DNA from: Siniperca chuatsi
Taxonomy: Eukaryota; Chordata; Actinopteri; Centrarchiformes; Sinipercidae
Length of the DNA stretch: 64,000 nucleotides
Assembly (NCBI RefSeq): GCF_020085105.1
Contig: NC_058065.1
Span: 1,466,810-1,530,809, forward strand
Direction of reading: 5' to 3'
A model generated the notes under the pieces. That model did not search any database and had not been told where the DNA came from. It worked only from the letters and a program-made list of their open reading frames with translations. A program made the position numbers and the translations under genes. Below are positions 16,729 through 58,700 of this stretch, one piece after another. Each line of letters opens with the position of its first letter. Within the stretch, counting starts at the first letter, position 1.

Positions 16729-17110
16729 GATCAGGTGCAGCACCAACAGTCTGAAACCCGGCGCTGCTCGGATCTGATACTGCTTCTCCCGTCACGCTGA
16801 GCAAAGTGCTCTTCACTTCCTATTTAAGGTGACTGTGTTGTATGTAAGATCTGATGATCTAAAACGCAAATACCAAGTTTCATCAGACGCTCAACAACCG
16901 GAAATTAAATTGCAGATGTTCAGGTTATACTTAGAGCTGTAGGAGCACTTTACTTCTTAAATATTTATGATGAGAAAACAGGAAGTGAAGCTCTGAACGC
17001 TTCAACCCTCCCTCAACACCACAAGAGGCCGACCAGATGTCAGACCCACTGCTCAGACCACAAGACGCCCGTCTCCTCTGGGTTTGTATAACTTCTGCAG
17101 CACCTTTCAA

Positions 17111-22496: not shown

Positions 22497-22680
22497 GATC
22501 AGGTGCAGCACCAACAGTCTGAAACCCGGCGCTGCTCGGATCTGATACTGCTTCTCCCGTCACGCTGAGCAAAGTGCTCTTCACTTCCTATTTAAGGTGA
22601 CTGTGTTGTATGTAAGATCTGATGATCTAAACCGCAAATACCAAGTTTCATCAGACGCTCAACAACCGGAAGTGAAACTT

Positions 22681-28885: not shown

Positions 28886-29017
28886 TCCCTCATGCAGTGC
28901 GGATATTGTGACACGTCCTGCATCTCGTTTTTGCCCTGATACGTTTGTATGCTGCCACCTGCTGGTCACTCCTGGCACCGTTACAAACCTCTGAAATCAT
29001 CCAGGAGTTGTACAAAC

Positions 29018-29344
29018 CTGAGACGCTGAGCGAGACTCTCTGCTCAAAGTCCACAGACCGGATGTGACATTCGTACGTGCCGCTGTCCGACTGCTGGACG
29101 TTCTTCACGGTGATGGAGAAGTTTCCCTTCTTGTACAGCTCCTGGAAACTGGACACTCGATTTTTGAATTTCGCGCCCTGTGCCGAAATGTCTGGTGCAT
29201 TATCTTTAATGTCCAGTACGTTGCTGTTGTCTTTGTCCCTCCAGAAGACGGAGAAAGGGTCTTTCAGAGCGCTGACGTCGCTGTAGAAGCAGGGCAGCAG
29301 GACGGTGTCTCCGATAAAACCCACAACATTAACCTGGCAGGTCA
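29018..29344 (-). CDS. B7/butyrophilin-like Ig V-set exon
   Basis: A 327-nt exon (109 codons) with a CAG acceptor just above 29344 and a GTTTGTA donor at 29017. It is phase 1 at both ends, as is typical of V-set exons. The protein runs VTCQVNVVGFIGDTVLLPC, then FSVFWRDKD, then GNFSITVKNVQQSDSGTYEC, with the two canonical Cys residues, the Trp after the first Cys (VFW) and the DSGTYEC signature. It ends in the G strand (RVSLSVSG). Resemblance is to the first domain of B7-family, butyrophilin-like and CD276/VTCN1-like fish proteins, which act at the cell surface in T-cell co-regulation. C-type domain, TM and tail exons are not found between 27.3 and 29.0 kb, so the locus is either a fragment or has exons that I could not see. 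Confidence 0.75.
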
Positions 29345-31147
29345 CTGGGAGACAACAGAAATGGTTTCTGGTATTTAAAATTCAAACACTCGAGAAATTT
29401 GTGGAAAACATTTTCCTAACACAACAGGACAAACGCATGTTTTCAATAAACTTGTGGCAACTTGTTTTATACGTTTTACAGGAAAAGATATTCGTCGATG
29501 GCTCTCGATATTCAGTCATCGATAACGCCAACCGAGGGCGGGTGAAGTGACGCTGACGTTACTCGAGTTGACGAAAACTCTGGGTTAATATCCGAGATAT
29601 CGACAAATAGGAGCTTTCGCTTTTCGCTGACACCAAACCCGCCTTCGTCTCGTCGCGTGATAAGTGATCGTGTATTCCCAAAGACTACCGCGGCAGGCCC
29701 AGCTGGCCTGCTGGCGCCTCATGTCACGTCTCCTCGCTGCTCAGGTGACCCAGAAATGAATGCGGGCCAACCATCACGAAGGACGCCTTTACTGGAAATC
29801 TGTTGTCCACCGGACGCAGCTGCTTCGTGTTCCAGTTTATCTAACAAGCGGAGGCAAGAGCGGCCTGTGTTACAGCAGCTCCTCATAAAGTCTAACTAGT
29901 TTCAACGACATAATAAAGTAATTCCGTTGCTAGGAAACAACGGAGGCTCAGGAGTTGTGTGGACTTTGTATTTTAGACGTTAAATTTGGAGTAAATGAGT
30001 CACAGAGTTGCATAAATCAGCGGTTCCTCGTGTGAGCTCCCAGCAGACAGTCCCAAGCAGGAAGCGCTCTGCTGAAACGGGAATCCGACAGAGGACACCG
30101 TCACTGTAACGCTGCCTGGACCGGCCAGCACTGGTTCATTTTACTTGCCTGCTATTTCTGTTACTACATTCATTTGCATTTGTTTAAAATGTGTCATTAC
30201 CAAAAACTTAAAGAAAGGTTTTAAACAGCTGCTGAAGACGTCTGGCCCACCTACAGTTCCTGGCTTTTCAAATGTGGCCGAGCTGAATATGTAACTGAAT
30301 GGGTGCAGACTGTTGTTTGTTTTTTTCTAAGTGCAGCAGTTTCACTTCCTGCGTGCACCATATCAGGGCTGCAGTTGGCACACCGGCAGCACAGCCAGGG
30401 GGGGGACTACTTCTCAGAAAGCAAGTGCAGGGCAACGATGGCGACGGCAGAGCTTTGGACTGAGAAACGGCGTGATGTCTGGACGCAGCAGCAGGTAAGA
30501 ATGACCTGAGGACTAAACGTGGCTAAACAAACGTTAGGTTGTTGTTCTTGCGCTGCCGTGCCAAACTAACATTTGACAAAGAAACTTAAGGGCATTAAAA
30601 AAACAGCTGACTCTACCTCAAGGTGAATCTTTGCGACTCACATCGCTCTGCCTCTGCAGACGGAGACGTACCTGTTAAAATCTTTTCTGAGAACTTTAAA
30701 AGTTCAGCTGCCTTCGAGCTCTGAGAAAAGGTGGAAATGTAAACAGATGCATAACTCCCGTCTGCCGATGAAGATTATGCGATATGATCAAAAGCTCCAG
30801 AGCAGCTTCTGAATGGACCCTGAGGATTGGTTTGTTGACATATTTTCTGTTTTGTGTTGTTGCTGCTTGTCTCGCTGAGGACGCTGATAAAAAAAAAAAA
30901 GACATTTTCGACCTAAATGAAGCTTCTCTGGTTCAATAAAACATTAATATACTATATATTATATATATTTACTACACCTGTTACATTGAGGTGTTTCTTC
31001 TTTCCTTCAGTAAAACTATAATTATTCAAAATGTCTTATTTCCGTTTGTTTAGTCCGCACAGCGTCGCACGACGGACGGGAACGCTGCTGGAGAGTTTTC
31101 ACTTGACCTGACCCCGGGTCCTTTCTGAACCACAACTCTGAGTATTT
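29345..31147. other. Mostly non-coding; intron of the V-set gene if the leader exon is real
   Basis: No repeat is recognised until the LINE tail at 31148. One plus-strand first-exon candidate lies at 30438-30494 and is listed separately. Confidence 0.4.
30438..30494 (+). CDS. Candidate short first coding exon (unrecognised)
   Basis: An ATG in good context (ACGATGG) opens 19 codons (MATAELWTEKRRDVWTQQQ) that end exactly at a strong donor, CAG|GTAAGA. No partner exon can be identified downstream on this strand, and I do not recognise the peptide. It may be a chance arrangement. Confidence 0.25.
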
Positions 31148-36023: not shown

Positions 36024-36235
36024 TTACAGACCGGTGGCACTGACCTCCCACATAATGAAGACTGGGGATGTTTTATGAGTCTGTGCTATCCTGTGTGCTG
36101 TTGCATGCTGGGGCAGCAGGTTAAGGGGAAGTGGATGCCCCCCTCACGTCCTGGATTGTTGACTACCTGACTGGCAGACCACAGCACATGTGACTGCAGC
36201 ACTGTGTGTCGGACAGCAACACTGGGGCATTGTAG
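36024..36235 (+). mobile_element. Jockey-like LINE reverse transcriptase, 3' fragment
   Basis: Encodes YRPVALTSHIMKT and then, after an internal deletion, SWIVDYLTGRPQH and a region resembling CVSDxxxNTGA. This is the second part of the RT split by the nested element. Confidence 0.78.
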
Positions 36236-36400
36236 AGGACTACAAGTTCTTCCACACCAACCTAAGAAAAACCCATTTCTTTATGGACAACGGCGTCCAC
36301 AGACTTTTGGCCACATACTGTATCTTTCAGCTGAATCAGTCAGTGGTCCTGACCTGAGAAAGACAACAAACACACTCACAGTAACATTCTGCTTTTATTG

Positions 36401-36500
36401 NNNNNNNNNNNNNNNNNNNNNNNNNNNNNNNNNNNNNNNNNNNNNNNNNNNNNNNNNNNNNNNNNNNNNNNNNNNNNNNNNNNNNNNNNNNNNNNNNNNN
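36401..36500. other. Assembly gap (100 N)
   Basis: Exactly 100 undetermined bases, the usual placeholder for a gap of unknown size. Reading frames running through it are meaningless. The missing sequence may hold the rest of the NLR fragment at 36.6-36.9 kb. Confidence 0.99.
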
Positions 36501-36615
36501 AACTGGTCAGACTGGACTTAATGAGGACAAACATCAGCAGTGAGCAACATGAGGAGGGAAATATGAACATTTTAGGTCAGACTGTCCAACACTTTTAATG
36601 CTGACAACTACTTAC

Positions 36616-41101: not shown

Positions 41102-42436
41102 AATTAGTAGCCCAGTCTCACAGTCAGGGACCCGTTCATCGGCTCAACTCCGAGAGAGATTTGAAGCAAGTGGTGCCCAAAATTGCAGATTTGCCTCCTT
41201 GTGAGTGCATCAATGTGCTATTTGGATATCAATGTTCAATATCTGAGAAAAGCAGCTCAGTCATTTAATCATATGGAAATGATTTGCTTCACTTCCTCTT
41301 TGATGTTTCTGTAGCTGATCTCTCGCCGGTCGATGGTGCCAAAGAATGCATCTGCCTTGTGGGAAACTCAAAATGGCCGGGAAGTACCTGGAAGAGGAGC
41401 TGGACAAGTGGGCCAAAATGTATGTATTGTTGGTAAGAGACTGTATTCACTACATGTTTTTATCTGCTACGGGTTTACCAGTCTAATGCGTTTCCTCTCA
41501 GCCTGTAGAGCTGGAACATGTGGCTGTGGACCTTTATTACACCAGGATGGTGTCTTGAAATGTCTTGCACTAAACAGCAGCACAGTTATGTAACGCGCAA
41601 CAACACAGACGTGACACTAACCCATATACCCATTTCCTACTTACAGGAAATGATGCAATATGTAGAATGTCAATCAAACAGCGCTGCATACAAAGCAGTT
41701 GAACTCTTCAACTCTAAAAAATATCCGTTAAATGATCATATAATGAGCAATAAAACATGAAATGGACTTTAATCACATAACAAAACATGCCTTTGCTCCT
41801 CAGGGAGACCATTAACTGCCTTTTTTTACTGGAGCTATACTCGAATGTATCTGTGCAAACAGAGATCTCTCGGCACAAAGTCCTTCCAGAGGACGAGGCC
41901 TTTCCCTCTGACCATGTGAGTAAATCTACAAATGTTGACTTGTTGAAGGTTTCACACGCTGACACCGAGAGAGAGACTCTGAGAACAGAGGACTTCCTGG
42001 AGGGGATCGAGAAGGAGGGCGACTCCATCGCTGTGGTGATGTTCAGGATTACACGGGCCAGCTGTTCAACATGGCCGCCATCACTGAGGAAGGTAACATC
42101 AACAATTATCCAGTAATACATATTATTCTTTAATGAGCCGTTCTGCATAATGAGGTACTTTTTGGTACTAGTATAATTTCATATGCAAATATGTTTGTGC
42201 TTTTACTTGAGAGTATTTCTACACTGAGTACTTCTTCCACCACTGTTGTTCATTTACATGTAAACACACTGTTTTCTTTGTGCCATGTTTCAATAACATT
42301 TCAAATTTCAGTCCCATCTACTCTCACATGAAAACTCTTAAAGTAGTAATAGTGACAGTAAATAAACAGCATAACTAATAATCCTGTCTGTCTTTTCTGA
42401 CAGGGCTGTTACGTGGCCTATAGGACCTGCTTTCAT
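41102..42436 (+). pseudogene. kynu: Kynureninase pseudogene, unprocessed and multi-exon
   Basis: Five exon relics in the correct order, with splice sites still visible. 41102-41200: LRERFE and, one base out of frame, VPKIADLPP. 41315-41419: DLSPVDGAKECICLVGNS then GKYLEEELDKWAK, with about 14 nt (the LGLQP codons) missing between. Up to 41915: RHKVLPEDEAFPSDH. About 41950-42092: ETLRTEDFLEGIEKEGDSIA, VVMF, then after a small deletion YTGQLFNMAAITEE. 42404-42436: GCYVAYRT. Kynureninase is a PLP enzyme of tryptophan degradation; the order and wording fit its N-terminal third to half. Missing exons, at least three frame breaks and loss of the PLP-lysine half show a dead partial gene duplicate, not a retrocopy. 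Confidence 0.85.
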
Positions 42437-42780
42437 GTAAGTTTCTTCTGTTGTCACTGTCTCCTCCAGGGTGGTGGGGACACAAGCTGAAGACTTGCCT
42501 GGCAAATCAGCTTAGTTTACTGGTCATGTTAGGTTAGCTAAAATAATTGTATTTTCTGATATCATTGTGCAAACTGTAAAAAGTTGTTGTAACTTTTTTA
42601 ACATTTTCATTATGTGCAAAAAAATCTTATGATTCAATGCCTATTTCAAAAACCCAATATAAAGCTTACAAATGTAGTTTTTACTTTTAAAAATTACACA
42701 ATATTCTTTCCCTATTCTTTCCTCCATCCTATAACCCCCTGCTTCCACCTCACCAAGGCCCCAGGGGGGACACAGCCCCC
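42437..42780. other. Non-coding spacer
   Basis: Nothing recognised. It ends at CCCCTGCTTCCACCTCACCA, which recurs at 47423-47445 (CCCCTGCTTCTACCTCTCCA) in front of another type-B module of the array. Confidence 0.5.
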
Positions 42781-44560
42781 CCATTCCCTCCCTCCCTTCA
42801 CAAATGTCACTGATGCTCCGGGTACTGGCAACGGCAGGATTCAAACCAGGCACCGCTGGCGCCTTAACCCTTATGGTCACGGCTGAACCCTCCACGCCAC
42901 CGAGCCCCCTTCGCGTCAGAACCTTTTCTCCGGGCGCTTTTATCTCTTCGCTTTGGGTTTTGGACTTCAAAATTGACTGAGCCTCGATAAGGATCGAACC
43001 CACAACCTCAAGGGTACCGCGCAGTCCTCTATCACTCTGAGCTACTGGACCGGACAGGTGGCCTTGGTTTCTTGGCGCTTTTCACTCTTTACTTTCAACA
43101 TTAGCTTTCAAAACTTAATGCGTCAAATGAGGATCGAACCAAGATCCTCGAGACTTCCAGACAGCCGTTTACTTACGCCCGTGGACGAACCAACCACGCC
43201 ACCGAGTCCCCATCGCATCAGAACCTTTTCTCCGGGCGCTTTTATCTCTTCACTTTGAGCTTTGGAGTTTAAAAATTGACTGAGTCTCAATCCAACAACC
43301 TCAGAGCCTCCAAGCAGTCCTCTATCACCCCGAGCTACTGGACCAGACAAGTGGGTTTGGTTTCTTGGCGCTTTTCACTCTTTACTTTCAACATCGGCTT
43401 TCAAAAATTTACTCCACCCAATGAGGATCAAACCCAGATCCTCAAGACCGCCGAGCAGGTCTCTATCATCCAGAGCTACCTGATGAGACACGTGAACTTG
43501 GTTTCTTGGCGCTTTTCAGTCTTTCCTTTAAGGGTCAGCTTTCAAAACACACGAATCAAGGATCTAACCCATAATTCAAACTCTTTCGAAGAGTGCTCTG
43601 ACACCCTGATTCAATGGGCCAGAGACAACAGAAGAATCATTTTTAAAAGCTTTTCAGTCTTTCAGAGTCACTGAGTTTCCTGGGGATCGAACCGATGTCC
43701 TCCAAACACTACAGGAAGTATCTAACAACCTGAGCCACAGGGCCTCAGATACTGAGCTCATCACTTTGTAAGCTTTTCAGTCTTTCCTCTGAGTTTTGGA
43801 CTTGAAAAAGTCACTGAGTTACCCGGGATCAAATATAAAATATATAATTTATGAGCACAAAATGTTTAGTTTTTTTAAATAAAAGCACCTGTGGCGTCCA
43901 TAAACGTACAGGAGGTGCCACATCATGAGGATTGAACCCAAATCGTCAGAACCCCTAGTCTGTCTTCTTCCACCCTGAGGTATTTGATCTGAGACAACTC
44001 GCTCCTCTTTCTTAGAGCTTTTCACTTTTTCCTTTGGACATAAGACTTCAAAATTCACAGGTTAGCGTGAGGACCGAACCCACGTCCTCAAAATACCTGA
44101 CGTAGGATCTAACAACCTGAGCCACTGGACACAGATACTGAGCTCATCACTTTGAAAGCTTTTCAGTCTTTCCTCTGAGTTTCGGACTTTAAAAGTGTTT
44201 GAGTCGCTCGGGGATCAAACCACAACCTCGAACTACTGCTGAGCCTTCGAACACGTTGAGTCACCATGTCTGCCCTCTTCTGTCTAAGCTTTGGGTGTTG
44301 GACTTCTAAAGTAAAGGAATCATCTGGGTATCGAACCCATGTCCTCAAAACACCCAAAAAGTCATCTAGCAGGTTGAACCACTGGGGCAAAGAGACCGAG
44401 CTCTTCATCTATAAAGCTCTTCTGGGTGTTGGATGTCACAGTTCATAAGATTACCCGAGGATCAAACCTACAACCTAGAACTCTTTAAGGGAGTCCACTA
44501 ACGCTTCAAGCTACTGAACAAGACACAATGAAAGTCTCATTTTTAAAGCTTTTCAGGCAG
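42781..44560 (-). repeat. Tandem array of tRNA-like (Pol III) modules, block 1
   Basis: About twelve modules, all transcribed from the minus strand, at 110-160-bp spacing. Each has an A-box-like start (e.g. TAGCTCAGAGTG, rc of 43033-43044) and about 35-40 nt later a B box (GGTTCGATCC, rc of 42991-43000, 43131-43140, 43684-43693; variants at 43434, 43561, 43932, 44071, 44213, 44328, 44459). In most modules a run of four or more T follows the B box by 12-30 nt (e.g. rc of 42969-42972 and 43110-43113), a Pol III terminator. Two module types are seen: A (GTCCAGTAGCTC...) and B (GGGGCTCGGTGGCGTGG...), alternating near the left end. Spacers share GGCGCTTTTCACTCTTTACT. Stem pairing of a real tRNA is poor. 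Confidence 0.8.
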
Positions 44561-46254
44561 ATTTCCATGAAATTGTGAACAAGTGAGCCCCTGACATCTC
44601 CTGTAGCGCCACCATGAGGTTGATATTTTTGGCTTTTAGTGAAATGTGGTTCAGACATTCATGTTCCCTTCAGGATGAATTGTAGTCCTTTTGTTGTTAA
44701 TTGGTTGAATATCATCCGGGGTAATGTCGGATATGTTGGATAACGTTTGTCGATCAAACCGACAACGAGTTGGTCAGACAGCGTTAATGTCACCAGCTCC
44801 TCCTCCTCCTGAATTATCTCTCTGTAAGAAGTTCGGCTTGTTTGTCGAACTCTCTGTTAAACTAAAAGTCTGAACCCTCAACTTTCCAGTCTGAAGTCAG
44901 CAGTGCAACTGTTGGATTTCAGCGACTTCAGTCAGGATTTCAAACTCTGCTGGTTGCAAAAAGAAGTCCATGAGAAAATGAGCCTACCTCTCAATTGATT
45001 TATTACCTCAGTAAACAGTTTCCTAATGAGTTTATGGTCTCAGAAGTCTTCTTCAATACAGCATGATGTTCATGTTTGAAAGTTATGGTCCCATTTAGAG
45101 TGGCTACGTCCACTCCTTTCATACAGTCTGTGGTCAGGATGCTAACACGATCACAGTGACTACAATACTGACTGTGTTGTCATGTTCGCCATCTTAGCGT
45201 AGGGTGTGTTAGCATGCTGACATTTGCTAATCAGCGTTAAACTTCATCCTGAGGGGGACGTGAATGCCGGTATCAAAGTTCCTTCAGTAGATATGGAGAC
45301 CCTGCTGAGAAGATCGCAAAAGAGAGAAAGAAAGCAGGGAATTAAGCCAGTGACCTTTAGCATCTCAAACAGATACCTGCAGTGTCGTCTCAACTCATAG
45401 AAGTTTTCCACCATCTTGTACAAACTCTGGTTCTCTATTAAAGCTCCCTTTGTATCTCACTGAGCTACACTGCTGGTGTTATTGTGTTTGTTTGTGGTTT
45501 TATTTCAGCTTTTGACACAAGAATATGAGAAGTAAAGAGCACTGGGACTTGAACCACCAATCTTACAATACTTTTATTATTTCCCTTATTGTTGCTTGAG
45601 CTGTCCCACTGTACCTGTATTCCTCTACAGGAAATGCAAAGATGTTTACATTTTCCCAGAAACATAAAATCATACATTTAATACATAGTTTTCTATTAAT
45701 TTGTGTGTTTTCATAGTATTTCTGCTACAAAGAAGAAGGCACGCAGAATCACATTCACTGTTGTATATTTGGGATTACTTAAAGTTCACATTTAATTAAA
45801 AAAAGATATATGTACACAAAATGTATGTAATATATGTACAAAAAAAGGTATAGAGACACAAAGTAAAGCAGCTTACAAGCAAAGGATGTTGGCAGTGAAG
45901 AACAACCACATCATTTAGTATGTAAAAGTGACCACATGCAGCTGCATCGCAATCCAGCAATGAATATTTTCATCAATATGTCTATAAAATGTCAGAAAAT
46001 AGTTATAATATAAAATAAATTCAAAATCCTTTCATCTGTCCAACAGTCAAAAACCCAAAGATCTTCAGTTTACTGTCGTATATGACAAAAAACAACACAT
46101 AAAATCTTTACTTTTAAGAAGCTGGAACCAGCAGATGTTTGCCATTTTTGCTAAAACGATTAAGCGATTATTACGAGTTTAATCAACTTATATCTGGAGC
46201 TCTTATTAATATTATATATGTGTAATGAAGCATAGCAGATATGGTACATTAGCT
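44561..46254. other. Interruption in the tRNA-like array
   Basis: Mostly unique sequence. One probable decayed module lies at 45330-45400 and another around 45457-45560 (CTGAGCTACACTGCTGG and GGGACTTGAACCACC). The 45425-45720 stretch is duplicated at 47028-47235. Confidence 0.5.
45425..45720. repeat. Duplicated block inside the array, copy 1
   Basis: TGTATCTCACTGAGCTACAC through GGACTTGAACCACCAATCTT, and AACATAAAATCATACATTTA, recur in order at 47050-47160 and 47188-47235. Copy 2 lacks about 75 bp in the middle. Confidence 0.85.
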
Positions 46255-48075
46255 TTCAAAATTTACTGGATCAAAGGAGGATTGAACCCAGATCCTTGAG
46301 ACAGCCTTCTACCACTTTGAGCTTTTGCCTGCAGATGAACCGACCACGCCACCGAGCCCCCTTTGCGTTATGAGTTCCTCTCCGGGCGCTTTTATCTGTT
46401 CACTTTGGGTTTTGGACTTCAAAATTGACTGAGCCTCGATAAGGATCAAACCCACAACTGCAAAGGAACCGAGCAGTCTTCTATCACCCCGAGATACTGG
46501 ACCAGACAGGTGAACTTGCTTTCTTGGCGCTTTTTACTTTCAAAATTTACTGCGTCAAATGAGGATCGATCCCAGATCCTCAAGACAGTCTTCGACTACT
46601 TTGAACTTAGGCCTGCAGATGAAACAACCACACCACCGAGTCCCCTTCGCATTACAACCTTTTCTCCGGGCGCTTTTATCTCTTCTCTTTGGGTTTTGGA
46701 CTTCAAAATTGACTGAGCCTCAACTGGCAACGACCTCAAGGGTACCGAGCAGTCTTCTATCACCCCGAGCTACTGGACCAGACAGGTGGCCAGTCTTCTT
46801 CCACCCTGAGGTATTTGATCTGAGGCACTTCTCTATTTTAGAGATTTTCAGAGATTCAGAGATTAGCGTGAGGACCAAACCCACGGCCTCATGATACCTG
46901 ATGTCGGATCTAACAACCTTAGCCACTGGACCTGAGACGTTGAAATAGTCTTTTTGAAAGCTTTTCAATCTTTCCTCTGAGTTTCAGACTTTAAAAGTCA
47001 TTGAGTCGCTCGAGGATCAAACTGCAAACTCTATTAAAGCTCCTTTTGTATCTCACTGAGCTACACTGCTGGTGTTATTGTGTTTGTTTGTGGTTTTATT
47101 TCAGCTTTTGACACAAGAATATGAGAAGTAAAGAGCACTGGGACTTGAACCACCAATCTTATGCACAGATGTTTACATTTTCTCAGAAACATAAAATCAT
47201 ACATTTAATACATAGTTTTCTATTAATTTGTGTGTGCTGCATCTGCCTGAACATCAAGATCTTGATTGAACCCACATCCTCGGAAGTCCTCATCAGTCTT
47301 CTAACACCCTGAGCTATTTGATCTGAAATACGTCACCTTTTTGTTCTAAATTCATACATAATACCAATATCATCAGAAAACATCACATAGTAAACTTAGT
47401 CATGATACTCTTCCTTTCCATAACCCCCTGCTTCTACCTCTCCAAAAGGCAGGGGGAGACACGGACAGGATTCAAACCCAGATGCTGCATCTCCACTGAT
47501 GTCTAACGGCTGCAGAGAACTCCGCCACACCACCTTCGCGTTATGGCTTCTTCTCCGGGCGCTTTTATCTCTTCGCTTTGGGTTTTGGACTTCAAAATTG
47601 ACTGAGTCTTGATAAGGATCGATCCAATAACCGCAAAGACCCCACCCAGTCCTCTATCACCCTGCGCTACTGGACAAGACAGGTGTCCTTGCTTTCTTGG
47701 GGCTTTTCACTTTTTCCTTTGGACTTCAGCTTTCAAAACACAGTGAATGGCCAGAGTCTCGAACCCATGACCTCAAAACTTCCAAGAAGTCCTACCATGC
47801 TGAGCTACTATGCTGGGTCTATTGGACCAGATTAGTGAACCTTATTTCTTCACGCATTTCACTGTTTTCCTTTGAAAAGCAGTTTTCAAAACACATTTCA
47901 TCCAATGAGGTTCGCATCCAGATTTTCAAACAACACATGACAGAAGGAACAAGTCAATGCATTTCCACCATTTAATGATCAGAGCGGCCATCTTTAAAGG
48001 ACTGACCAAGCAGTCCTCTATCACCCTGAGCTACTGGACCAGACAGGTGGACTTGGTTTCTTGGCGCTTTTCACT
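46255..48075 (-). repeat. Tandem array of tRNA-like modules, block 2
   Basis: At least twelve more modules in the same orientation as block 1. B boxes or variants in reverse complement lie at about 46275, 46442, 46563, 46873, 47015, 47145, 47261, 47467, 47617 and 47755; A-box reverse complements include CCCCGAGCTACTGGACC near 46763 and CCTGAGCTACTGGACC near 48026. The strict B-A-B-A alternation is clearest at 46255-46795. The block ends where the LINE at 48095 begins, within the spacer GACTTCAGCTTTT. Confidence 0.8.
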
Positions 48076-48094
48076 CTTTACTTTGGACTTCAGC

Positions 48095-49064
48095 TTTTTT
48101 ATTTATTTTTATTTTTTTGTGCGCATGCGCCAGCCCGCATGCTGCCTATTGCTGTAGCTCTGTCTTGTCGTCTTACTTTTTCAAACTTTTAGCTTTCCTT
48201 TTTCTTCCAAACTTGAGTAACTTGTGGGTAAGTATAATTTAAACTACGCTCTTTACGAAAATGAGAGTAGAAAGTGTTTTAGTACTTTTTTTTGCCATGG
48301 AACTTCTCCTCCTGCTACTCGGTCAGGGCACTGCTGAAGCCAAGCAGCATTGGGTCTGGTTAACAACAGATGGTGTAACCCTGGTCCCGTTACTATCAAG
48401 CAGAGTATCTGTAGCCCGGACATTGAACTGTTAGCTGTGGGACTCCGGCCATATTATCTGCCACATGAATTCTCACATGCCATTGTTGTGGCTGTTTACA
48501 TCCCCCCCTCTGCTAACCCGGCATCGGCGTGCAACGCCATTCACACCGCCATAGCACAACTCCAGACTCAACACCCGAGTGCACTCATATTAATCTCGGG
48601 TGACTTCAAGCATGTCAATGTTTCAACAACACTGACTAATTTCACCCAGTGTGTGAATTGTCCTACTAGAGAGGAGAGGACACTGGACCTGCTGTATGCT
48701 AACATTAAGGACGCATACAACTTTTCCCCCCTCCCCCCACGGCCTATGAGACACTGCAGGAATGTTTTGAGATGACAAACTGGGATGCACTCTGTGAGCC
48801 TCATGAAGAGGACATTGACGGGCTCACTGAGTGCATCACTGGCTACGTTAACTTCTGTGTGGACTGCAATGTCCCAACTAAGATGGTCCATTGTTATCCA
48901 AATAAACCGTGGGTTACAAAGGACATCAAGGGCATCCTGAATGCCAAGAGGAGGGCCTTTACTGATGGTAATAGGGAGGAGGTGAGGGCAATCCAGGCCG
49001 ACCTGAAGGTGAAGCTCAGGGAGGCTAAGGAGAAGTACAGGAGGAAGCTGGAGTGGAAACTCCA
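48095..49064 (+). mobile_element. Jockey-like LINE, 5' UTR and endonuclease domain
   Basis: The 5' UTR (TGCGCATGCGCCAGCCCGCA...) is followed by coding pieces. 48350-48770 encodes an apurinic-type endonuclease part: NNRWCNPGPVTIKQSICSPD, ELLAVGLRPYYLPHEFSHAI, VAVYIPPSANPA, LILISGDFKHVN, EERTLDLLYANIKDAYNF. The catalytic-type GDFNH is changed to GDFKH. After a deletion that removes the SDH motif region and a stop, 48772-49064 encodes the linker before RT (WDALCEPHEEDIDGLTECI, KPWVTKDIKGILNAKRRAFT). It ends abruptly at a (GT)n tract. Same family as the RT pieces at 34.5 and 36.0 kb. Confidence 0.85.
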
Positions 49065-49334
49065 GTGTGTGTGTGTGTGTGTGACGCTCTGATTGTTCAC
49101 CTGAACAAAAAACGTGTCTAAAACAAGAAAGTACTAATGAATGATAAAAACGTGTGTAAATGTTTGTGTTTGTGCAGTAGGGGGTCACTCAGGGTCACAG
49201 TGTGTGTGTGCTGCAGAAGTGATGAGTCAGTCCAGATGAGTTCAGTTTTATTTCATGTTGTGTAATGTTTTGTACCGTGTGGTGCATTCAGTGTCTCAGT
49301 GTTTCCCTGACTGAACCCCGAGCTGTGTGTGTAG

Positions 49335-49400
<66 letters not shown>

Positions 49401-49430
49401 TTATACTTACAGGTAAACCCAGCCTCAGTG

Positions 49431-49461
<31 letters not shown>

Positions 49462-49498
49462 AGAGGTGTGTGCTTATACTTACAGGTAAACCCAACCT

Positions 49499-49534
<36 letters not shown>

Positions 49535-49620
49535 CGCTCTGATTGTTCACCTGAACAAAAAACGTGTCTAAAACAAGAAAGTACTAATGAATGATAAAAA
49601 CGAGTAAATAAATATTACAT
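49065..49620. repeat. TG microsatellites with a duplicated 85-bp block
   Basis: (TG)n tracts lie at 49065-49083, 49337-49398, 49427-49460 and 49501-49532. The block GACGCTCTGATTGTTCACCT through TACTAATGAATGATAAAAAC occurs at 49082-49152 and again at 49532-49602. GCTTATACTTACAGGTAAAC is also doubled (49399 and 49473), so the tracts have been duplicated repeatedly. Confidence 0.9.
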
Positions 49621-50529
49621 ACGCATCCTTCATCTCAGACAGAAGCGAAAGCAGAGGAACATTTTTACGTAGGTCTGTGGGTAACGTCGATTTTGCGCCA
49701 CCCTGTGGTCATAGCAGGTACTCCACGGTCTCATACAGATCCAAGACTGCCACTGAAAAAGTTAATGTCTCATGTTTTGATGACATGATCATTTTTTCTC
49801 ACAAAAAGGGACTTTTATGGCTACAAGGGCTGTTAGCTGGTTAATGTAACTTCAGTGAACACGTTAGCTTACTGCAGTAGCTGATCAGAGGACAAGCAGA
49901 CCTCGGAAGTAAACCTGGAAGCTAGAAAACTTTTTTGGAGCAGTTCTCATTTGAATGAAAAGCCATTGAGAGATTTTTTTGTCTGCATTTAGATGAAGAA
50001 AGTTCAGACACATCCATGCATCCATTTTCTGCCGCTTATCCCGGGCCGGGTCGTGGTGGCAGCAGGCTGAGCGAGGACGTCCCCGGCAGATGAGATGTAT
50101 AATCTCTCTAGTGCGTTCTGGGCCAACCCCCAGGGTCTCCTGCCGAGCTCCCTTCCGGATGTAAGTTATTGGTTTGATTCCCTTACAGAGAGAATCTGTG
50201 GGACTGCAGTCGCTTGGTGGCAGAGGAAGGTAAATTTGGGTGTCGTCTGCATAATAATGATAACTGATGTTATTATTTTATCTAACATGCCCTAATGGAA
50301 GCATGTAAATGTTAAATAGAAGAGGACCCAGGATTGAGTCTTGGGGAACTCCGCTCAGATGCATAATTACTAGTTGTCCAGAAGATATGACTCGAACCAG
50401 TCGACTGCCTGAATCAGTTTCTAAGATCTTTAAAGAGTAATTTTTTATTTTTTCGTCATACTATAAATTGATTCATTCTGATCTGTGTGTGACTGGGTTG
50501 TTAGGAAGTTATTACATAAGCATTAGTTT
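49621..50529. repeat. Dispersed fish repeats
   Basis: 50010-50190 (CATCCATTTTCTGCCGCTTA, CCCGGGCCGGGTCG, then TTCTGGGCCAACCCCCAGGG) and 50230-50420 (GTCGTCTGCATAATAATGAT ... GGAACTCCGC) resemble two interspersed repeats that I recall as common in teleosts. No gene is seen. Confidence 0.55.
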
Positions 50530-50739
50530 TTGTGTCAAGAAGATTATTCTTTAATAATTCAAAGTTTTTGTTTTCAGCATTATAATCAGCATAAAATCAA
50601 ACTAGAATGTAAAGTTGAGACAGTTGCTGTCTTAGCGTTTTTGTTTAATAATGAAAAAATGTTAGAAATTGTCCAACAAGCCTGTCTTCGCTTCGGAGGT
50701 CACATGCCTGAAATTACCCTCATCGACATTCATATTTTC

Positions 50740-50976
50740 TTAGATCAGTGTTGATGAAGGCATCCTGGACTTGCCTGATAAGACCTCAGAGACGATGGTT
50801 CCCCTGGCAACGCCATGTGTCCCTGTGACACTGTGAGGCTTCAGCAACTTCTCTGTGAATCTTATCGAACCAGAGTTCATATAAACAGCTGCAGCAGCTT
50901 TTCTAACCAACTCCTCGTGAGTCACTGTTGACTTTTTACTGTGTTTACACAACCTCTGTGGAAATAATGCAAATAA
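50740..50976 (-). CDS. Unrecognised open frame
   Basis: The minus-strand frame reads THEELVRKAAAAVYMNSGSI, RFTEKLLKPHSVTGTHGVAR and GTIVSEVLSGKSRMPSSTLI before a stop at about 50740. Composition is protein-like and non-repetitive. A weak acceptor (AACACAG at about 50940) precedes it, and the 5' extension runs into a CA repeat. No domain is recognised. It could be a terminal exon of an unknown gene or a repeat-derived frame. Confidence 0.3.
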   Translation of the reverse strand, partial: LFALFPQRLCKHSKKSTVTHEELVRKAAAAVYMNSGSIRFTEKLLKPHSVTGTHGVARGTIVSEVLSGKSRMPSSTLI

Positions 50977-51114
50977 CACAATTACACTGCACGTGTGTGT
51001 GTGTGTGTGTGCTGACAGGCCCATGTTCAGGATACATGATCATCATGTGTGCAGACTTTCTGTACTTTTGGCTCTCTGTTCAGAGGGTTGTACTTCCGCA
51101 CCAAGTGGACTGAT

Positions 51115-51600
51115 TGTGACCAATATAAGAAAACGACTATGCAAGTAAGTGAGGTTGTGGGTTCGATCCTCAGGTGATTCCTGTCTAAACCTAAGACTCG
51201 CAAACTTTTAGGTATTGAGGCCATGTTATCGTTGATGAAGTGTGTTTTGAAAGCTGCTGTTTAAAGGAAAGAGTGAAACACGTGAAGAAAGAAAGGTCTG
51301 GTCCAATAGCTCAGCATGGTCGAGGACTGCTTGGAAGTTTTGAGGCCATGGGTTCGATACTCTGGTGATTCACTTCGTTTTGAAAGCTGAAGTCCAAGAA
51401 AAGAGTGAAAAGCTCACCTGTCTGGTCCAGTATCTCGGGGTGATAGAGGACGAAAGAGTTTCCCCTCTGGGATCAATAAAGTGTTTCTGATTCTGATAAA
51501 AGCGCCTGGAGAACAGGTTCAAATGCGAAGGGGGCTCGGTGGCCTGGTGGGGTTCTCTGGTTCGAATCCTGTATCGGGTAGGCGGGGGCTGTGAGATAAC
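51115..51600 (+). repeat. tRNA-like modules in opposite orientation, with a LINE tail inserted
   Basis: Four modules on the plus strand: a B box at 51156-51166 (GGGTTCGATCC); a complete type-A module at 51300-51365 (GTCCAATAGCTCAGCATGGT ... GGGTTCGATAC); a second type-A start at 51420-51450; and a type-B module at 51527-51575 (GGGGGCTCGGTGGCCTGGTG ... GGTTCGAATCC). The second A module is cut by a LINE 3' tail at 51452-51497 (GAGTTTCCCCTCTGGGATCA). Inverted relative to the main array. Confidence 0.8.
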
Positions 51601-52140
51601 CACGAGCGGCTGAAGTTTTACTGAAACGTTAAGAAGAAATTGTTTTTGAAATGTTGAAAACAGTTTTGTAAATTGGATGGGTTTCAATAGCCACTAATGT
51701 AAAAGCAATAAATGTCATAGTAAGAATAAATATAAAGACACGAAATAAATAAATACAAAAACAAAATTACAGAAATAAATACTAGACGTTTTCAGAGAGA
51801 AGATTAATGGTCATATTTAACAATCTTTTCTTCTTCGTGAGCTTCAGGAATGAAAGGAAAGTGAAAATAATTGACCAAATACAATAACAGTCTTTAGGAT
51901 CAGCTCATTTTTCATGATGATGCCAAATGTGACTTCTTCCTTTTTAAATGTCGTTAATCCAAGAAAACAACCGTGAGCATGAAAATGTTGGGCTTTATTT
52001 ACAGCTGTTAGATGGAGAAGCTTTAAAAATCACTTTGAGTTCATTGATGAATTTATGACAATAACCTGAAAGATTTCTGTAGCTGTGATCCTGTACAGAC
52101 TCAACTGATGTGTTTCTCTAACAGGAGGAGACTCTCCCTC
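51601..52140. other. 3' flank of the NLR gene
   Basis: AT-rich, with no gene. AAATAAA/AATAAA-type motifs on the minus strand (rc of TTTATT near 51992) could serve as polyadenylation signal for the NLR gene ending at 52141. Confidence 0.45.
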
Positions 52141-52709
52141 CTACAGAGAACACAGAGACACTGAGGAACCAGACCTGGACCAGGACCAGATTGCAAAGCC
52201 AGGATAAAGAGGTTCAGTGAATGTGGTGTTGAAGGTGTGGAGGTGGATCAGTGTGTCAGAGGAGACTCTGTAGAAGGACAGAGTGCCAGCAGGACAGTCC
52301 ACATACACTGCTACTCTGTCAGAGACAGAGGAGGAGGAGGAGGAGGAAGAGGAGGAGGAGGAGATGGATGTTACTCTCTTATTGTGACAGATGGAGTAAC
52401 CATCATCATCAGAGCAGCTCAGACTCCAGGACTGATCATTCCATCCAAACAAACAGTCTCCACTGCGTCCTCTCCTGCTGATTCCTCTGTAACTCACTGA
52501 TATAAATACCCTTCCTCTCCACTCGACCTCCCAGTAACAGCGACCAGTCAGACCATTTCTACACAGCAGCTGAGACCATGGATGATTCAGAAATATTTTG
52601 ATCCTTGAATAAAAACTCTTTAATGTGTCATATATCGCCTTCCTGTTGTCGTCAGACAGTTGGATCTCTCTGTTCGCTGTGTTTGTGTCGAGTGTGAGTT
52701 CACAGGAAT
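52141..52709 (-). CDS. Last exon: PRY-SPRY (B30.2) domain
   Basis: 569 nt, open throughout, stop TAG at 52143-52141. It starts after CCATCAG in phase 1 and reads [20 protein letters not shown] (PRY), then [44 protein letters not shown] (SPRY core) and [20 protein letters not shown]. The PRY stretch [19 protein letters not shown] differs from the usual fish version. A run of about 12 Ser lies in the loop after NKRVTSI, encoded by an imperfect TCC repeat. This exon is the putative recognition surface. Confidence 0.9.
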
Positions 52710-55700
52710 CTGATGGAGAGAACGAGACACAACACAGCTGCAGTTATTAATCTGTCATCTGTTTGATGACGACATCAGAGACGTGAATGAGTGATGTCAC
52801 AGTTTGAAGATGGCTGAATGTGTGCTGCTTTGTTTTCATGAATCAAAGTAAAAACACACTTACACTTCCTCAGACCTGGTCTCAGCCATCGGACTCCACC
52901 GGGCTCCACCCTGAAAGGAGGAGGGGGGTCAGACCAGCACGTCCTCTTTCAGCATGCAGACATGGACATTACATTACTCTCATACACATCTGCACAATCT
53001 GTGCCTCCGGCCTGCTTCTCCCTGCCCCCTGCTCCTCCCTCCCCCCCCTGCTCCTCTTCACCTCTGCCTCTCTCCTCAGACACTGAGAGTGACCCACAGG
53101 ATGTTGTTGTGTGTGAAAGAGGAGGACGACATCTGTTCACACACAAAAACCTCTTTTGGATCGTCCCGTCTCCATTAAGAGTCCCACTTCAACAGCCCTC
53201 CTTGGTTCCAGACCTCTGCCATAAACCAGGTGACAGAGACTCCCAGACTGTTTCCCTCCAAACCCTCACAAGTGTCAGAAATCCTCTTTCTGACAGAAAC
53301 AGCATCGTTTCATGTGCTGGATGTTTTGTGCATGTTCATGTTACTGTGGTTTGGTGCTGAACTGATATCTGTGATGTATATTACAGCAGGAATAATTCCT
53401 GTCAGGATCACGTCTGTCTCACTGTGCTGCACACGTCATGTTCGACGTCACTCAAAGCAGAAATAATGACAGTTTGGGGAAAACTCCTCTCAGATTTAAA
53501 TCTGCTGTGACAAACATGATGTGTCCAGATGTGAGTACAGGAACATCTGTAAAAACAGGTGGAACTTCAGTGTTGGAGCCAAGACTCCCCTGGTCGCCAC
53601 CACCTCAACCCAAAACTAGAATTGGTTTGGACGTCCTTTGTCCTCTCGTCCTCTCGTCCTCTCTTCTCTCGTGACTCTTGGCTTCGTGCTGCCTTTCCTC
53701 CTGAACTGAACTGAAGAACTGCAGATGGAGGACTGAAACAGCAAAGACTTGCTGGAACTTCGCCGTGTTGGCCTCTCGGCCGGTCTGCCAAACGAACCGG
53801 GCCTCCCGACACTAAACCATCTACAGCAGAGACCCAGAGTCTGTCTCTCCTCTCCTGTGTGAGCCCGACTCCTTCAGCTCAGCCCTCCACCTTCTCCACC
53901 TGGGATCACCAACACCACCTCAACAACCTGCGCTGCATCCAGCAGCAACATCTGGTCCAAGACTTGGCCTGCATGAACGCTGAACGCTGCTTAAAGAGCA
54001 ACTACATTTCTACTGAACCTTTCCTGGAAATGACCGTTTGAAGAGTTGATGCAGGATTTGACGTTTCACAGACAGAAGGGCAAAGATTCAGAAGAAACAG
54101 TCGCCGCTCTTTTCCAACATGGCGTCACATTACGTAACATAAGGGACTGCCATCATGTAGGAGGGCGAAACCTTAGAAACAGCTCTCAGTGTGATGCAGT
54201 CCTGTACAACCCAACACTATGAGCTTAGTCAAATGTGCACTATGTGATATCATTCTCTATTATTTGCTTATATTTCTGAACCACATGCAATTTCATGTTC
54301 AATTTGTCATTCATCTGGTATCTCAATAAACATTCCTGGATTGTCAGATATCTCTGGTTAAGTACTGACTGGACTCCTGCAGCGGGCCAGTTCATCCTTC
54401 ATCTCATCACGCCTGGATTACTGTAACAGCCTTTTTACTTGCGAAACCAAAAATCTATTGATCGACTCCAGACTGGACAGAACTTACACTGGCTCCCAGT
54501 ATGTTTCAGAATAGATTATAAGACTTCACTGATTACTTTTAAATCCGGTCGGCTGAGTCAGTGATCTCTTTTAAGTCCCTTCTTAAAACATATGTATTTC
54601 GGAGAGCCTTTCCTGATTTTACTAGTTTTCATTTTCTTTAAACTGTCTTTTTTTTAAAAACAGATGGTTTTATGACTTGTGTGCGAAAGACTCATCCGAC
54701 CTAAAATGCGCCACAGGAAGTCATTCCTGCCTGTGGTCATCAAAGTCTTTAACTCCTCCTCTAAGTGTCAGTCTGTATGAACTTAAGTCGATAAACTGGA
54801 CATTGATCATTAATATCACTGCAATACTTGAAATAATTGTGCAATATTCTCTGTTTTCAGTTTAATTTATTGATATTACTCATACTTCTATCCACCATAA
54901 TAATCTTAATAAGCTACACTTAACTTGACAGTACATGCACTATTACTTATTACTTGTATTATTACATTGTATTTTTATACTGTACATACTTATACTTATC
55001 ATCAACCAGTAATCCACTTTGCACTTTACACTTACAAGTACTTAATTGCTGTAACAAAAAGAGTTTCCCCTCAGGGATGAATAAAGTATTTCTGATTCTG
55101 ATTCTGATATCATGTTTGTTCCTGGAGATGTTCTCCTTGGAGTCCTCCTACACAAATATCTCCATTTCACATTCAACCAGTGTTTCTGTTCTGAGCAAAG
55201 GAAAAAGGCTTCCTACATGTGTGATTGTTCATATAACTCTCATATCCACCTTTAACCAAAAAGACAGAGAAAATGATCTTCCTCCTCTTTCAGACTGTCT
55301 GTGGCTGCAGTAGGCCACTTCATACCTGAGAGTGTCCAGTCTCCAGTGTGGATCCTCCAGTCCAGCAGACAGCAGCTTCACTCCTGAGTCTCCTAGATGA
55401 TTGTAGCTCAGGTCCAGCTCTCTCAGATGGGAGGGGTTGGAGCTCAGAGCTGAGGCCAGAGAAGCACAGCCTTCCTCTGTGATCAGACAGCCTGACAGCC
55501 TGCAAACACACAAAACAACACACATGGCAGATCATCTGAGGGTCCTGCTGCGTCTGTCAGATACAAGAGGACACTCTCCAAATGAATTAATAAATAAATA
55601 CAGTGACTGAATCAGGGATTCAGTAGTAACCATGACATTATGATCTAAATGTTATTCTACAGCCATGCTAGCAGCTCTGTGAAATTAAGTGGAGCTTGAA

Positions 55701-58700
55701 ATTTAGAGAAATAACTTAAATTATAAGACAAACTTTGACTTAGTCTGACCTGAGAGTTTCCAGTTTACAATGTGGACTCTCCAGTCCAGCTGTCAGCAGC
55801 TTCACTCCTGAATCCTGCAGGTCGTTGTTACTCAGGTCCAGCTCTCTCAGACTAGAGGACTGGGAGCTGAGAAACGAGGACAGAGCTTCATAGCTTCTCT
55901 TTGAGAGGTTACAGCCACTCAGTCTGGAGAGGAAATAGTGAAGACGATGACAAATAACATTTGTATTAAAATGCTGAGTCTGGTCTTTTGGTGATACAGT
56001 ATATATAATATATTCTCAGCACGTTAAAATCCTTGCTGTTTTACTCTGAACACGTTGGAGAAGTGACTGAATCAGTAAAAACATGAAATGATAATATTAT
56101 ATAATAAATTCGAAACAAAAATAACGTTCTCTGTCTCACTCAGAAGTCATATTTCATGCTGTACAATACATAAACCTCAATTAGTACAAAATTCATTGGA
56201 AAACTCAAAGACTTTCTGTACTGTGAAATTTGAAATCCTGACAGAAGAGATTCAGGAACCGTGATGAAATGCAGCTTAGAGAAATCATTTTAAAACATTG
56301 AGACAGACTGTGACTTAATCTGACCTGAGAGTTTCCAGTTTACAATGTGAACTCTCCAGTCCAGCTGTCAGCAGCTTCACTCCTGAATCCTGCAGGTCGT
56401 TGTTACTCAGGTCCAGCTCTCTCAGACTAGAGGACTGGGGGCCGAGAACTGAGGACAGTGCTTCACAGCTTCTCTTTGAGAGGTTACAGCCACTCAGTCT
56501 GGAGAGACAACAGTAAGTAAACGAGTAAGTAGTTTTTAATTTCTTTCTCCTGTTCATGAATAAATCCCACTATGTATCTACTTACAGAGCTTTGTTGGAG
56601 GCTTTGACCACTGGCAGCAGCCTCAGAAGAGCCTCCTCTGAAGCTGAGTATTTCTTCAGGTCAAACACATCCAGATCTTTTTCTGATGACAGTAAGATGA
56701 AGACCAGAGCTGACCACTGAGCAGGAGACAGTTTATCTGTGGAGAGACTTCCTGAACTCAGGGACTGTTGGATCTCCTCCACTAGAGAACGATCATTCAG
56801 TTCATTCAGACAGTGGAACAGATTGATGCTTTTCTCTGCAGAGGGAATCTCTTCGATCTTCTTCTTGATGTACTCGACTGTTTCCGGACTGGTCTGTGAG
56901 CGACTTCCTTTCCGTGTCAGCAGGCCTCGTAGGAGAGTCTGATTGGTCTGCAGTGAGAGTCCCAGGAGGAAGCGGAGAAACAAGTCCAAGTGTCCATTTG
57001 GACTTTTTAAGGCCTGGTCCACAGCACACTGGTACAAGTGTGTCACTGCAGATTCAAGGTAGGTTGATTGTTCTTCTGACAGCAGATTGACACCAGAGTT
57101 GATGAAGGTCAGATGGACATGAAGAGCAGCCAGAAACTCCTGAATGCTCAGATGGACGAAGCAGAACACCTCGTTCTGATACAGCCCTCTCTCCTCTCTA
57201 AAGATCTGTGTGAACACTCCTGAGCACACTGAGGCTGCTCTGATATCGATGCCACACTCTGTCAGGTCTGATTCATAGAAGATCAGGTTGCCTTCCTGCA
57301 GCTGCTCTAAAGCCAGTTTTCCCAGAGACACAATCATCTTCCTGCTCTTTTAATTCAAGTGTGGATCTGTCTCAGCTCCTCCATCATACTTGATGCTCTT
57401 CAGTTTGGACTGAACCACCAGGAAGTGGATGTACATCTCAGTTAGGGTCTTGGGCAGCTCTCCTCCCTCTCTGGTCTTCAACACCTCCTCCAGAACTGTA
57501 GCAGTGATCCAGCAGAAGACCGGGATGTGGCACATGATGTGGAGGCTTCGTGATGTTTTGATGTGGGAGATGATGCTGCTGGCCTGCTCCTCATCTCTGA
57601 ATCTCTTCCTGAAGTACTCCTCCTTCTGTGGGTCGGTAAACCCTCTGACCTCTGTCACCATGTCAACACACTCCGAAGGGATCTGATTGGCTGCTGCAGG
57701 TCGTGTGGTTATCCAGAGGCGAGCAGAGGGAAGCAGGTTCCCCCTGATGAGGTTTGTCAGCAGCACATCTACTGAGGTGGACGTTGTAGCATCAGTCAGG
57801 ATCTCATTGTTGTGGAAGTCCAGAGGAAGTCGACACTCATCCAGACCGTCAAAAATGAACAAAACCTGGAACTCTTCAAACCTGCAGATTCCTGCTTCTT
57901 TGGTTTCAGTAAAGAAGTGATGAACAAGTTCCACCAAGCTGTATTTTTCTTTTTCAGCACATTCAGCTCTCTGAAAGTGAATGGAAATGTGAACTGTATG
58001 TCCTGGTTGGCTTTGTCTTCAGCCCAGTCCAGAGTGAACTTCTGTGTTAAGACTGTTTTCCCAATGCCAGCCACTCCCTTTGTCATCACCGTTCTGATTA
58101 TTTCATCTCTTCCAGGTGAGGGTTTAAAGATGTCTTCTTGTCTGATTGTTGTTTCTGGTCTGTCTGGTTTCCTGGATGCTGTTTCAATCTGTCTGACCTC
58201 ATGTTCATCATTGACCTCTGCAGTCCCTCCCTCTGTGATGTAGAGCTCTGTGTAGATCTGGTTCAGAAGGGTTGGGTTTCCTGCTTTAGCGATTCCCTCA
58301 AACACACACTGGAACTTCTGCTTCAGGTTAGATTTAAGTTTACGTTGCCAAACTCCAGAATGACTTCCTGAATAAACACACAAAAAATCAGATCAATAAT
58401 ATTTCCCTCCATCTCTTGAGACATCAGTAAATGTCCCGTTTATCCAGCATGTTAAATCTTTAAAGAAATCCTCTTACTGATCTGCAGACAGTCAGCCAGC
58501 TCCTCCTGCTTCATTCTCCTCAGGAAGTGCAGTGTGATCTTCAGAAATGCCTCTCTGCTGCTCCTCCTCTGCTCTTCCTCCTTACCGTCCAACACCTCCT
58601 CATCCTCCCTCTGACTCTCTAAGCATTCTGGGTAATCTGATCCCAGAACCTTCTGCATTTTCTTCAGCTCGTTCTTCACAAAAGTGACAATGTTCTCCTC

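Follow-up and report, generated by a model that had tools for sequence, protein, structure and literature searches.

Repeats built from tRNA-related sequence are known from more than one setting. In squamate reptiles, parts of tRNA-related short interspersed elements (SINEs) make up SINE-derived satellites (sSats), which are described as tandem units of ~70–290 nt with limited homogeneity and a likely subtelomeric location (PMC10702118). Tandem arrays of tRNA genes are reported from Entamoeba and human 1q23.3, where tRNA-related units are repeated along the DNA (PMC2652664; PMC4041453). Zebrafish chromosome 4 offers a further point of reference: its NOD-like receptor (NLR)-B30.2 gene clusters are described as concentrated on one chromosome among other multicopy sequence, there zinc-finger genes (PMC4852459). 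Here we describe an array of tRNA-like modules beside an NLR gene in a 64,000-nt stretch of Siniperca chuatsi DNA (the window; C24:1466810–1530809, on a 19.1-Mb contig of a 718.8-Mb genome comprising 65 contigs). With a probability of about 70%, it is a tRNA-derived, locally tandem repeat that is not kept as a gene, was copied along one chromosome and is now decaying. Passive carriage of the arrays by segmental duplication is the best reading of their spread.

The kinship with each described system is partial. The arrays resemble the sSats in their tandem, tRNA-related units; unlike the sSats, they have no parent SINE that could be found, lie on one contig, spread whole and in many cases accompany segments of a gene cluster. 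With the tandem tRNA gene arrays, and with the tRNA clusters on contigs C5, C10, C11 and C12 of the same genome, they share the repetition of tRNA-related units along the DNA, whereas the modules fold unlike tRNAs and reach the gathering score of no tRNA model. As in zebrafish, NLR-B30.2 genes are concentrated on one chromosome among multicopy sequence, which in this case consists of a tRNA-like array and a kynureninase pseudo-exon. No account of arrays like these next to NLR genes of fish appears in the titles and abstract openings consulted, in which subscription literature is little covered.

On the minus strand of the window, between 42.97 and 48.04 kb, an iterated nhmmer profile recovers 21 tRNA-like modules in two blocks about 1.7 kb apart. 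The first-pass annotation, made from the letters of the window, had proposed an array of ~24 modules; the array is largely as described, but the profile count is 21, with three further modules inverted at 51.15–51.47 kb. Its claim that A and B boxes recur on one strand is amply borne out. From 42.7 to 48.15 kb the B-box pattern GGTTCGATCC, with at most two mismatches, has 21 minus-strand matches and the A-box pattern TAGCTCAGNGTG has 17, whereas resampling that stretch 200 times with a first-order Markov model gave means of 1.5 and 0.8 and maxima of 6 and 5. Three of the B-box words are exact, 11 carry one mismatch (in six of these the CpG is the site of difference) and seven carry two; a few are not module B boxes, namely 44760, in the interruption between the blocks, and 44114 and 46915, in the D-loop part of a module. 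The shared spacer word was also recognized correctly: the complement of GGCGCTTTTCACTCTTTACT, with at most four mismatches, has 11 minus-strand matches, three of them exact, all within the array, and one extra plus-strand match outside it.

The recurrence every 110–160 bp that had been claimed is irregular inside the window; among 201 modules pooled from the window and 20 further loci, 118 of 178 consecutive steps measure 100–170 nt, with a mode of 141. The profile search finds 3 to 24 modules per sequence, and the modules have in common a tail of ~65 nt that belongs to the unit. Tandem Repeats Finder has no entry in 42.7–48.15 kb. Long, homogenized head-to-tail arrays, by which a satellite is defined, are not what is seen here, given these module numbers and nearest relatives that mostly lie in other arrays. 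Parts of the interruption recur in the 5′ block, 45433–45565 at 47029–47161 (99%) and 45634–45708 at 47161–47235 (97%).

TTTT lies within 32 nt of the B box in 12 of the 21 window modules. Over all loci a B core is recognizable in 167 of the 201 modules (none in 34), and TTTT follows within 45 nt in 132 of these, compared with 27% of random 45-nt stretches; in 98 of the 132 modules the first T is 20 or 21 nt beyond the core. The full layout of a type-2 RNA polymerase III (Pol III) unit, with A box (≤2 mismatches), B box (≤1) and TTTT in register, is present in 8 of the 21 window modules, 13 being without one or more of the parts. The A-to-B distance, first put at 35–40 nt, is 44 nt in 10 of the 21 and 40–45 nt in 14. 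A distance of this size is that of an intronless tRNA gene.

The array modules are nonetheless not tRNA genes, a point on which the first-pass annotation was right. ARAGORN finds no tRNA in the window. Rfam, applied to the window and to all of the 20 other loci but L027, reports none that reaches the gathering score. When three stretches were scanned permissively, again no tRNA appeared; over the array there were three weak matches, none to the tRNA family and one to transfer-messenger RNA at E 0.5, and the sole tRNA-type match of the piece that ends the array was tRNA-Sec at E 8.3. In 30 aligned modules selected from 37 non-redundant ones, 57.2% of cloverleaf cells are paired, against 56.6% with shuffled letters, and RNAalifold returns no conserved fold (−1.03 kcal/mol). 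The in-register figure does exceed the 37.5–49.7% obtained for slid versions, as expected of a faded tRNA register. Pairing reaches 81% of cells in the T-arm, 48% in the acceptor and 39% in the anticodon arm; the acceptor is therefore as poor as had been noted, but the T-stem, described likewise, pairs well. A consensus or module string attains up to 0.84 identity to a tRNA-Thr of the same genome in a comparison set of Thr and Cys tRNAs only; when the consensus was shuffled 100 times, identity averaged 0.71 and did not exceed 0.83.

A 601-nt array query, for which all 39 first-look candidates were scored, has 56 DNA matches, every one on C24 and spanning 0.15–5.36 Mb; a query from the array 3′ end has 50, again all on C24 (32 of 32 candidates scored); and a 22-letter A-box pattern has nine exact matches, all on C24, its reversed control having none. 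The diverged array L027 gave 127 matches (40 of 1,992 candidates scored), of which 114 lie on C24, and the 13 elsewhere all fall within query positions 676–827, one 152-nt part that is apparently an inserted dispersed repeat. The 56 matches were represented by 28 places and these grouped into 25 clusters. By these DNA matches, arrays were found on only one of 65 contigs, at about 25 places in 0.15–5.4 Mb of C24. The three DNA queries, which skip very common words and might let a very abundant parent escape, revealed no dispersed parent SINE on other contigs; neither they nor the pattern turned up the genome-wide dispersed copies that define a SINE, and the identified SINE from which a SINE-derived satellite takes its unit was not found in the same genome. 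One scan of the spacer word against viral contigs gave no match.

Relatedness among modules indicates how the arrays multiplied. Once 22 of the 201 modules had been dropped as too incomplete, 172 of the remaining 179 had their nearest relative in a different array, at a median identity of 97.7%; the best partner within the same array has 88.0% (median of 105). Because the nearest relatives are in other arrays, the arrays must have been copied whole. We envisage that a unit of ~141 nt, consisting of a tRNA-like head with A and B boxes and a tail led by a T-run, was duplicated head to tail long ago, and that segmental duplication later spread the completed arrays, each ending in the same 3′ terminal piece, as intact blocks over one chromosome, many of them together with the kynureninase pseudo-exon and NLR exons; since then they would have been decaying. 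For the NLR-linked copies, segmental duplication is shown by this relatedness and by their common flanks. The A boxes, B boxes and T-runs would be leftovers of a tRNA-like ancestor, either a SINE head or a tRNA gene. Pol III may still transcribe some modules, but there is no sign that a product is used.

The kynureninase-like pseudo-exon in the 3′ flank has a frame break near 42045, as read from the letters; among the 40 of 263 candidates scored, DNA of this flank lies within ~3.2 kb of nine other C24 array loci and recurs once without an array, at 2,032,850. The neighboring NLR gene matches Pfam domains at E values of 4.6e-37 for FISNA, 1.9e-20 for NACHT, 2.7e-17 for NOD2_WH and 1.4e-34 for NLRC4_HD2; a gene with FISNA-NACHT and PRY-SPRY domains is characteristic of fish. 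In loci L016 and L017 the B30.2 flank stands in the same order as in the window, the array beginning ~1 kb past the B30.2 stretch. Of the 25 array clusters, 17 have a listed NACHT exon (150 of 215 candidates scored) no farther than 22 kb away, on the same strand in 14 of the 17; of the 34 such exons listed on C24, 14 have an array within 20 kb. NLR relatives of at least 80% identity occur on nine other contigs (C1, C3, C9, C11, C12, C14, C16, C21 and C52), where the 601-nt array and 3′-end queries have no match; the array is therefore no constant component of an NLR gene. A tRNA-derived tandem repeat, found on a single chromosome, thus tracks the history of an expanding fish NLR cluster and could be used as a marker of immune-gene copying.

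Table 1. Positions of the array, its modules and neighboring features in the window
Feature	Position	Strand	Support
5′ array block, 10 tRNA-like modules	46255..48042	−	nhmmer profile; box/T-run table
5′ block, modules 1–5	48004–48042, 47732–47810, 47591–47678, 47264–47324, 46990–47064	−	nhmmer profile
5′ block, modules 6–10	46853–46934, 46702–46781, 46539–46607, 46418–46505, 46255–46323	−	nhmmer profile
Interruption without modules, 1,733 bases	44522..46254	.	
3′ array block, 11 tRNA-like modules	42966..44521	−	nhmmer profile; box/T-run table
3′ block, modules 1–6	44443–44521, 44304–44386, 44188–44264, 44047–44130, 43922–43990, 43663–43744	−	nhmmer profile
3′ block, modules 7–11	43541–43622, 43401–43486, 43269–43346, 43107–43171, 42966–43053	−	nhmmer profile
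3′ terminal piece: last tRNA-like head, G-run/C-run inverted repeat, conserved end	42723..42930	−	
Three more modules, inverted, two of them fragments	51150..51474	+	nhmmer profile; box/T-run table
Stretch with kynureninase-like pseudo-exon, array 3′ flank	41781..42116	+	phmmer to kynureninase chains, E 3.7e-8
PRY-SPRY (B30.2) exon of neighboring NLR gene, 4.1 kb 5′ of array	52141..52743	−	Pfam SPRY, 9e-12
FISNA, NACHT, NOD2 winged-helix and HD2 stretches of NLR gene	56582..58392	−	Pfam

That the arrays would have been decaying since they were copied is supported by the lack of constraint specific to the boxes. When groups were formed by surroundings, so that modules would not be chosen by their boxes, and only changes private to one copy were counted (7 of 15 groups, 54 sequences), these amounted to 10/648 in the A box, 9/588 in the B box and 26/1674 between the boxes. 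Median differences are 4.3% for the final ~420 nt of the array and 2.9% for the homologous flank, the array end being more diverged in 11 of 15 non-independent pairs drawn from six copies with homologous flanks; we read this as no slowing of the array end, which falls short of proof of neutrality. The same comparison nevertheless weakens the argument for decay that set the 3′ core of the array against its flank. A nine-copy profile rises sharply in divergence at the edge of that core; in pairwise profiles the next 300 nt are often unalignable and the more distant flank is at least as similar between copies as the core, and selection on the 3′ core in the NLR-linked copies was accordingly dropped as an explanation. 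CpG transition ratios were inconsistent between parts and were left unused. Maintenance of the array for the production of many short RNAs is consequently not supported: private changes are equally frequent in the boxes, and the 3′ end is about as diverged as its flank. Boxes decaying at the neutral rate, an outcome that the first-pass annotation had itself named as telling against its proposal, is what the sequence test shows as far as its 7 of 15 groups reach. The locus also cautions that A and B boxes lined up in series with T-runs can represent fossil promoters.

A number of observations pull the other way and account for our remaining doubt about a decaying, passively copied repeat. In 453 paired modules the difference is 0.066 in the A box and 0.073 in the B box, against 0.143 between them, which had suggested selection on the boxes; these modules had been chosen by resemblance to the profile, and the suggestion was dropped when private changes proved equal, though shared changes are fewer. 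Counting private and shared changes together, the boxes deviate less (A 16/648, B 26/588, between 133/1674). Profile picking and shared descent may be responsible for the fewer pair and shared changes in the boxes. The corrected test has low power, 8 of 15 groups that could not be anchored being left out, and within it TTTT has no private change (0/198; p between 0.025 and 0.083, depending on the version) and the 16 nt that follow the B box have few (6/843). The array end is less diverged than its flank in 4 of the 15 pairs, and dropping flank bins with at least 25% difference biases that comparison towards the reading we favor. For eight of the 25 array clusters, the nearest listed NACHT exon is over 80 kb away. 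Loci L024 (4203–4678), L025 and L026, at ~5.10, 5.36 and 4.50 Mb of C24 and hence 0.26–0.86 Mb apart, have 492–509 nt of the array 3′ end in common at 92–94% identity, while the lone listed match between their flanks is 61 nt long and far from the array; such likeness without common flanks is not simply explained by segmental duplication. Finally, the observed-to-expected CpG ratio, pooled over 14 copies, is 0.92 in the last two modules and 0.81 in the terminal piece, compared with 0.49 downstream and 0.56 in the window. Local transposition, gene conversion and a maintained core are each compatible with this likeness and CpG richness.

The 3′ terminal piece deserves separate description. Its 14 full copies are all on C24, and its 3′ edge is common to the window and other array copies. 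The B box of its head reads GGTTTGAATCC in the window and GGTTCGAATCC in the other 13 aligned copies, being canonical in 13 of 14, and its A-box stretch is presumably reminiscent of tRNA-Leu. The RNA fold of one such piece is no better than that of shuffles (z 0.03), and non-triplet indels speak against a coding reading. In the window the CpG-rich 3′ end spans 42723–43260; the 3′ ends of 13 other arrays are likewise CpG-rich.

Alternative origins for the repeat have to be weighed against this evidence. Amplification in tandem of part of a tRNA-derived SINE, as in squamates, is a tentative alternative that we place well short of even odds. Unit size, the tRNA-like head with its tail and the modest homogeneity all agree with the accessible portion of PMC10702118, as does a location within the initial 5.4 Mb of C24 (19.1 Mb); the absence of a dispersed parent off C24, within the reach of the three queries given above, counts against it. 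It is rather unlikely that the array is what remains of a tandem cluster of genuine tRNA genes, which would have degenerated where they stood before being duplicated along with the region. This genome does hold intact, clustered tRNA genes on the four contigs named above (63 of 37,045 candidates scored), the A-to-B distance is tRNA-like, the cloverleaf register pairs better than its slid versions, the head of the 3′ terminal piece may resemble tRNA-Leu, and the best identity to tRNA-Thr exceeds the best shuffle. That last excess is, however, bare and stems from Thr and Cys tRNAs only, the anticodon arm is unrecognizable, the ~65-nt tail belongs to the unit, and the tRNA genes on C10 stand ~1.2 kb apart. 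There, at C10:29588082–29619394, equally scoring tRNA genes lie in a row, mostly at that spacing.

Readings that grant the array a present activity or mobility fare worse. A working gene array, its modules transcribed by Pol III from the internal boxes and ending at the T-runs to yield a short-RNA family of the NLR region, seems improbable. It would make sense of boxes and T-runs in register, the unchanged TTTT, the fewer shared changes in the boxes, the CpG-rich last modules or terminal piece and the alikeness of L024, L025 and L026; private changes no rarer in the boxes than in the stretch separating them, an array end no slower than its flank in 11 of 15 pairs, the complete layout in only 8 of 21 window modules, the lack of a conserved fold and NLR relatives on nine contigs devoid of array matches all count against it. 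We give similarly poor odds to a narrower version, in which the 3′ core alone (the last two modules and the terminal head, ~490 nt, CpG-rich) would be a chromosome-specific Pol III noncoding RNA gene family in and around the NLR cluster, kept alike despite lost flanks, the rest of the array being decayed debris; were that core transcribed, it would amount to a new short-RNA family in an immune region. A mobile element with several tRNA-like heads and a terminal piece, hopping within one chromosome, could have left the common 3′ edge and the three alike loci in dissimilar flanks, but it has little to recommend it when all 50 3′-end matches are on one contig and no common 5′ edge exists, because other array pieces lie upstream. 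Least credible is a TFIIIC-binding boundary or insulator beside the NLR genes, which we consider very improbable on present sequence evidence. The shared strand of 14 of the 17 clusters near a listed NACHT exon and the start of the array ~1 kb past the B30.2 stretch in L016 and L017 would suit such a role; joint duplication accounts for the common orientation, an array accompanies just 14 of the 34 listed C24 NACHT exons, and private changes reveal no box constraint.

Several minor observations complete the description. Window positions 46246–53604 have a near-copy in inverted order at C24:1089–1097 kb (L021), with main pieces at 87.9–99.1% identity. Near other arrays, L027 and L028 have 4.3 kb in common at 96% in opposite orientation, ARAGORN reports one tRNA-Ser in each, outside the modules (L027:4954–5028 and L028:5051–5125), and a mir-153 precursor match lies at L028:9071–9142. 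Elsewhere in the window, a retrotransposon endonuclease-like fragment occupies 48338–48775 on the plus strand (weak Pfam match, E 0.015), and letters at ~36400–36510, inside 36171–36521, are unreadable (X in translation). Tandem repeats are found at 1033–1342 (21-nt, open in several frames) and 18417–18781 (22-nt), and immunoglobulin V-set domain stretches on the minus strand at 16342–16791, 22110–22559 and 28890–29381, the first two closely alike.

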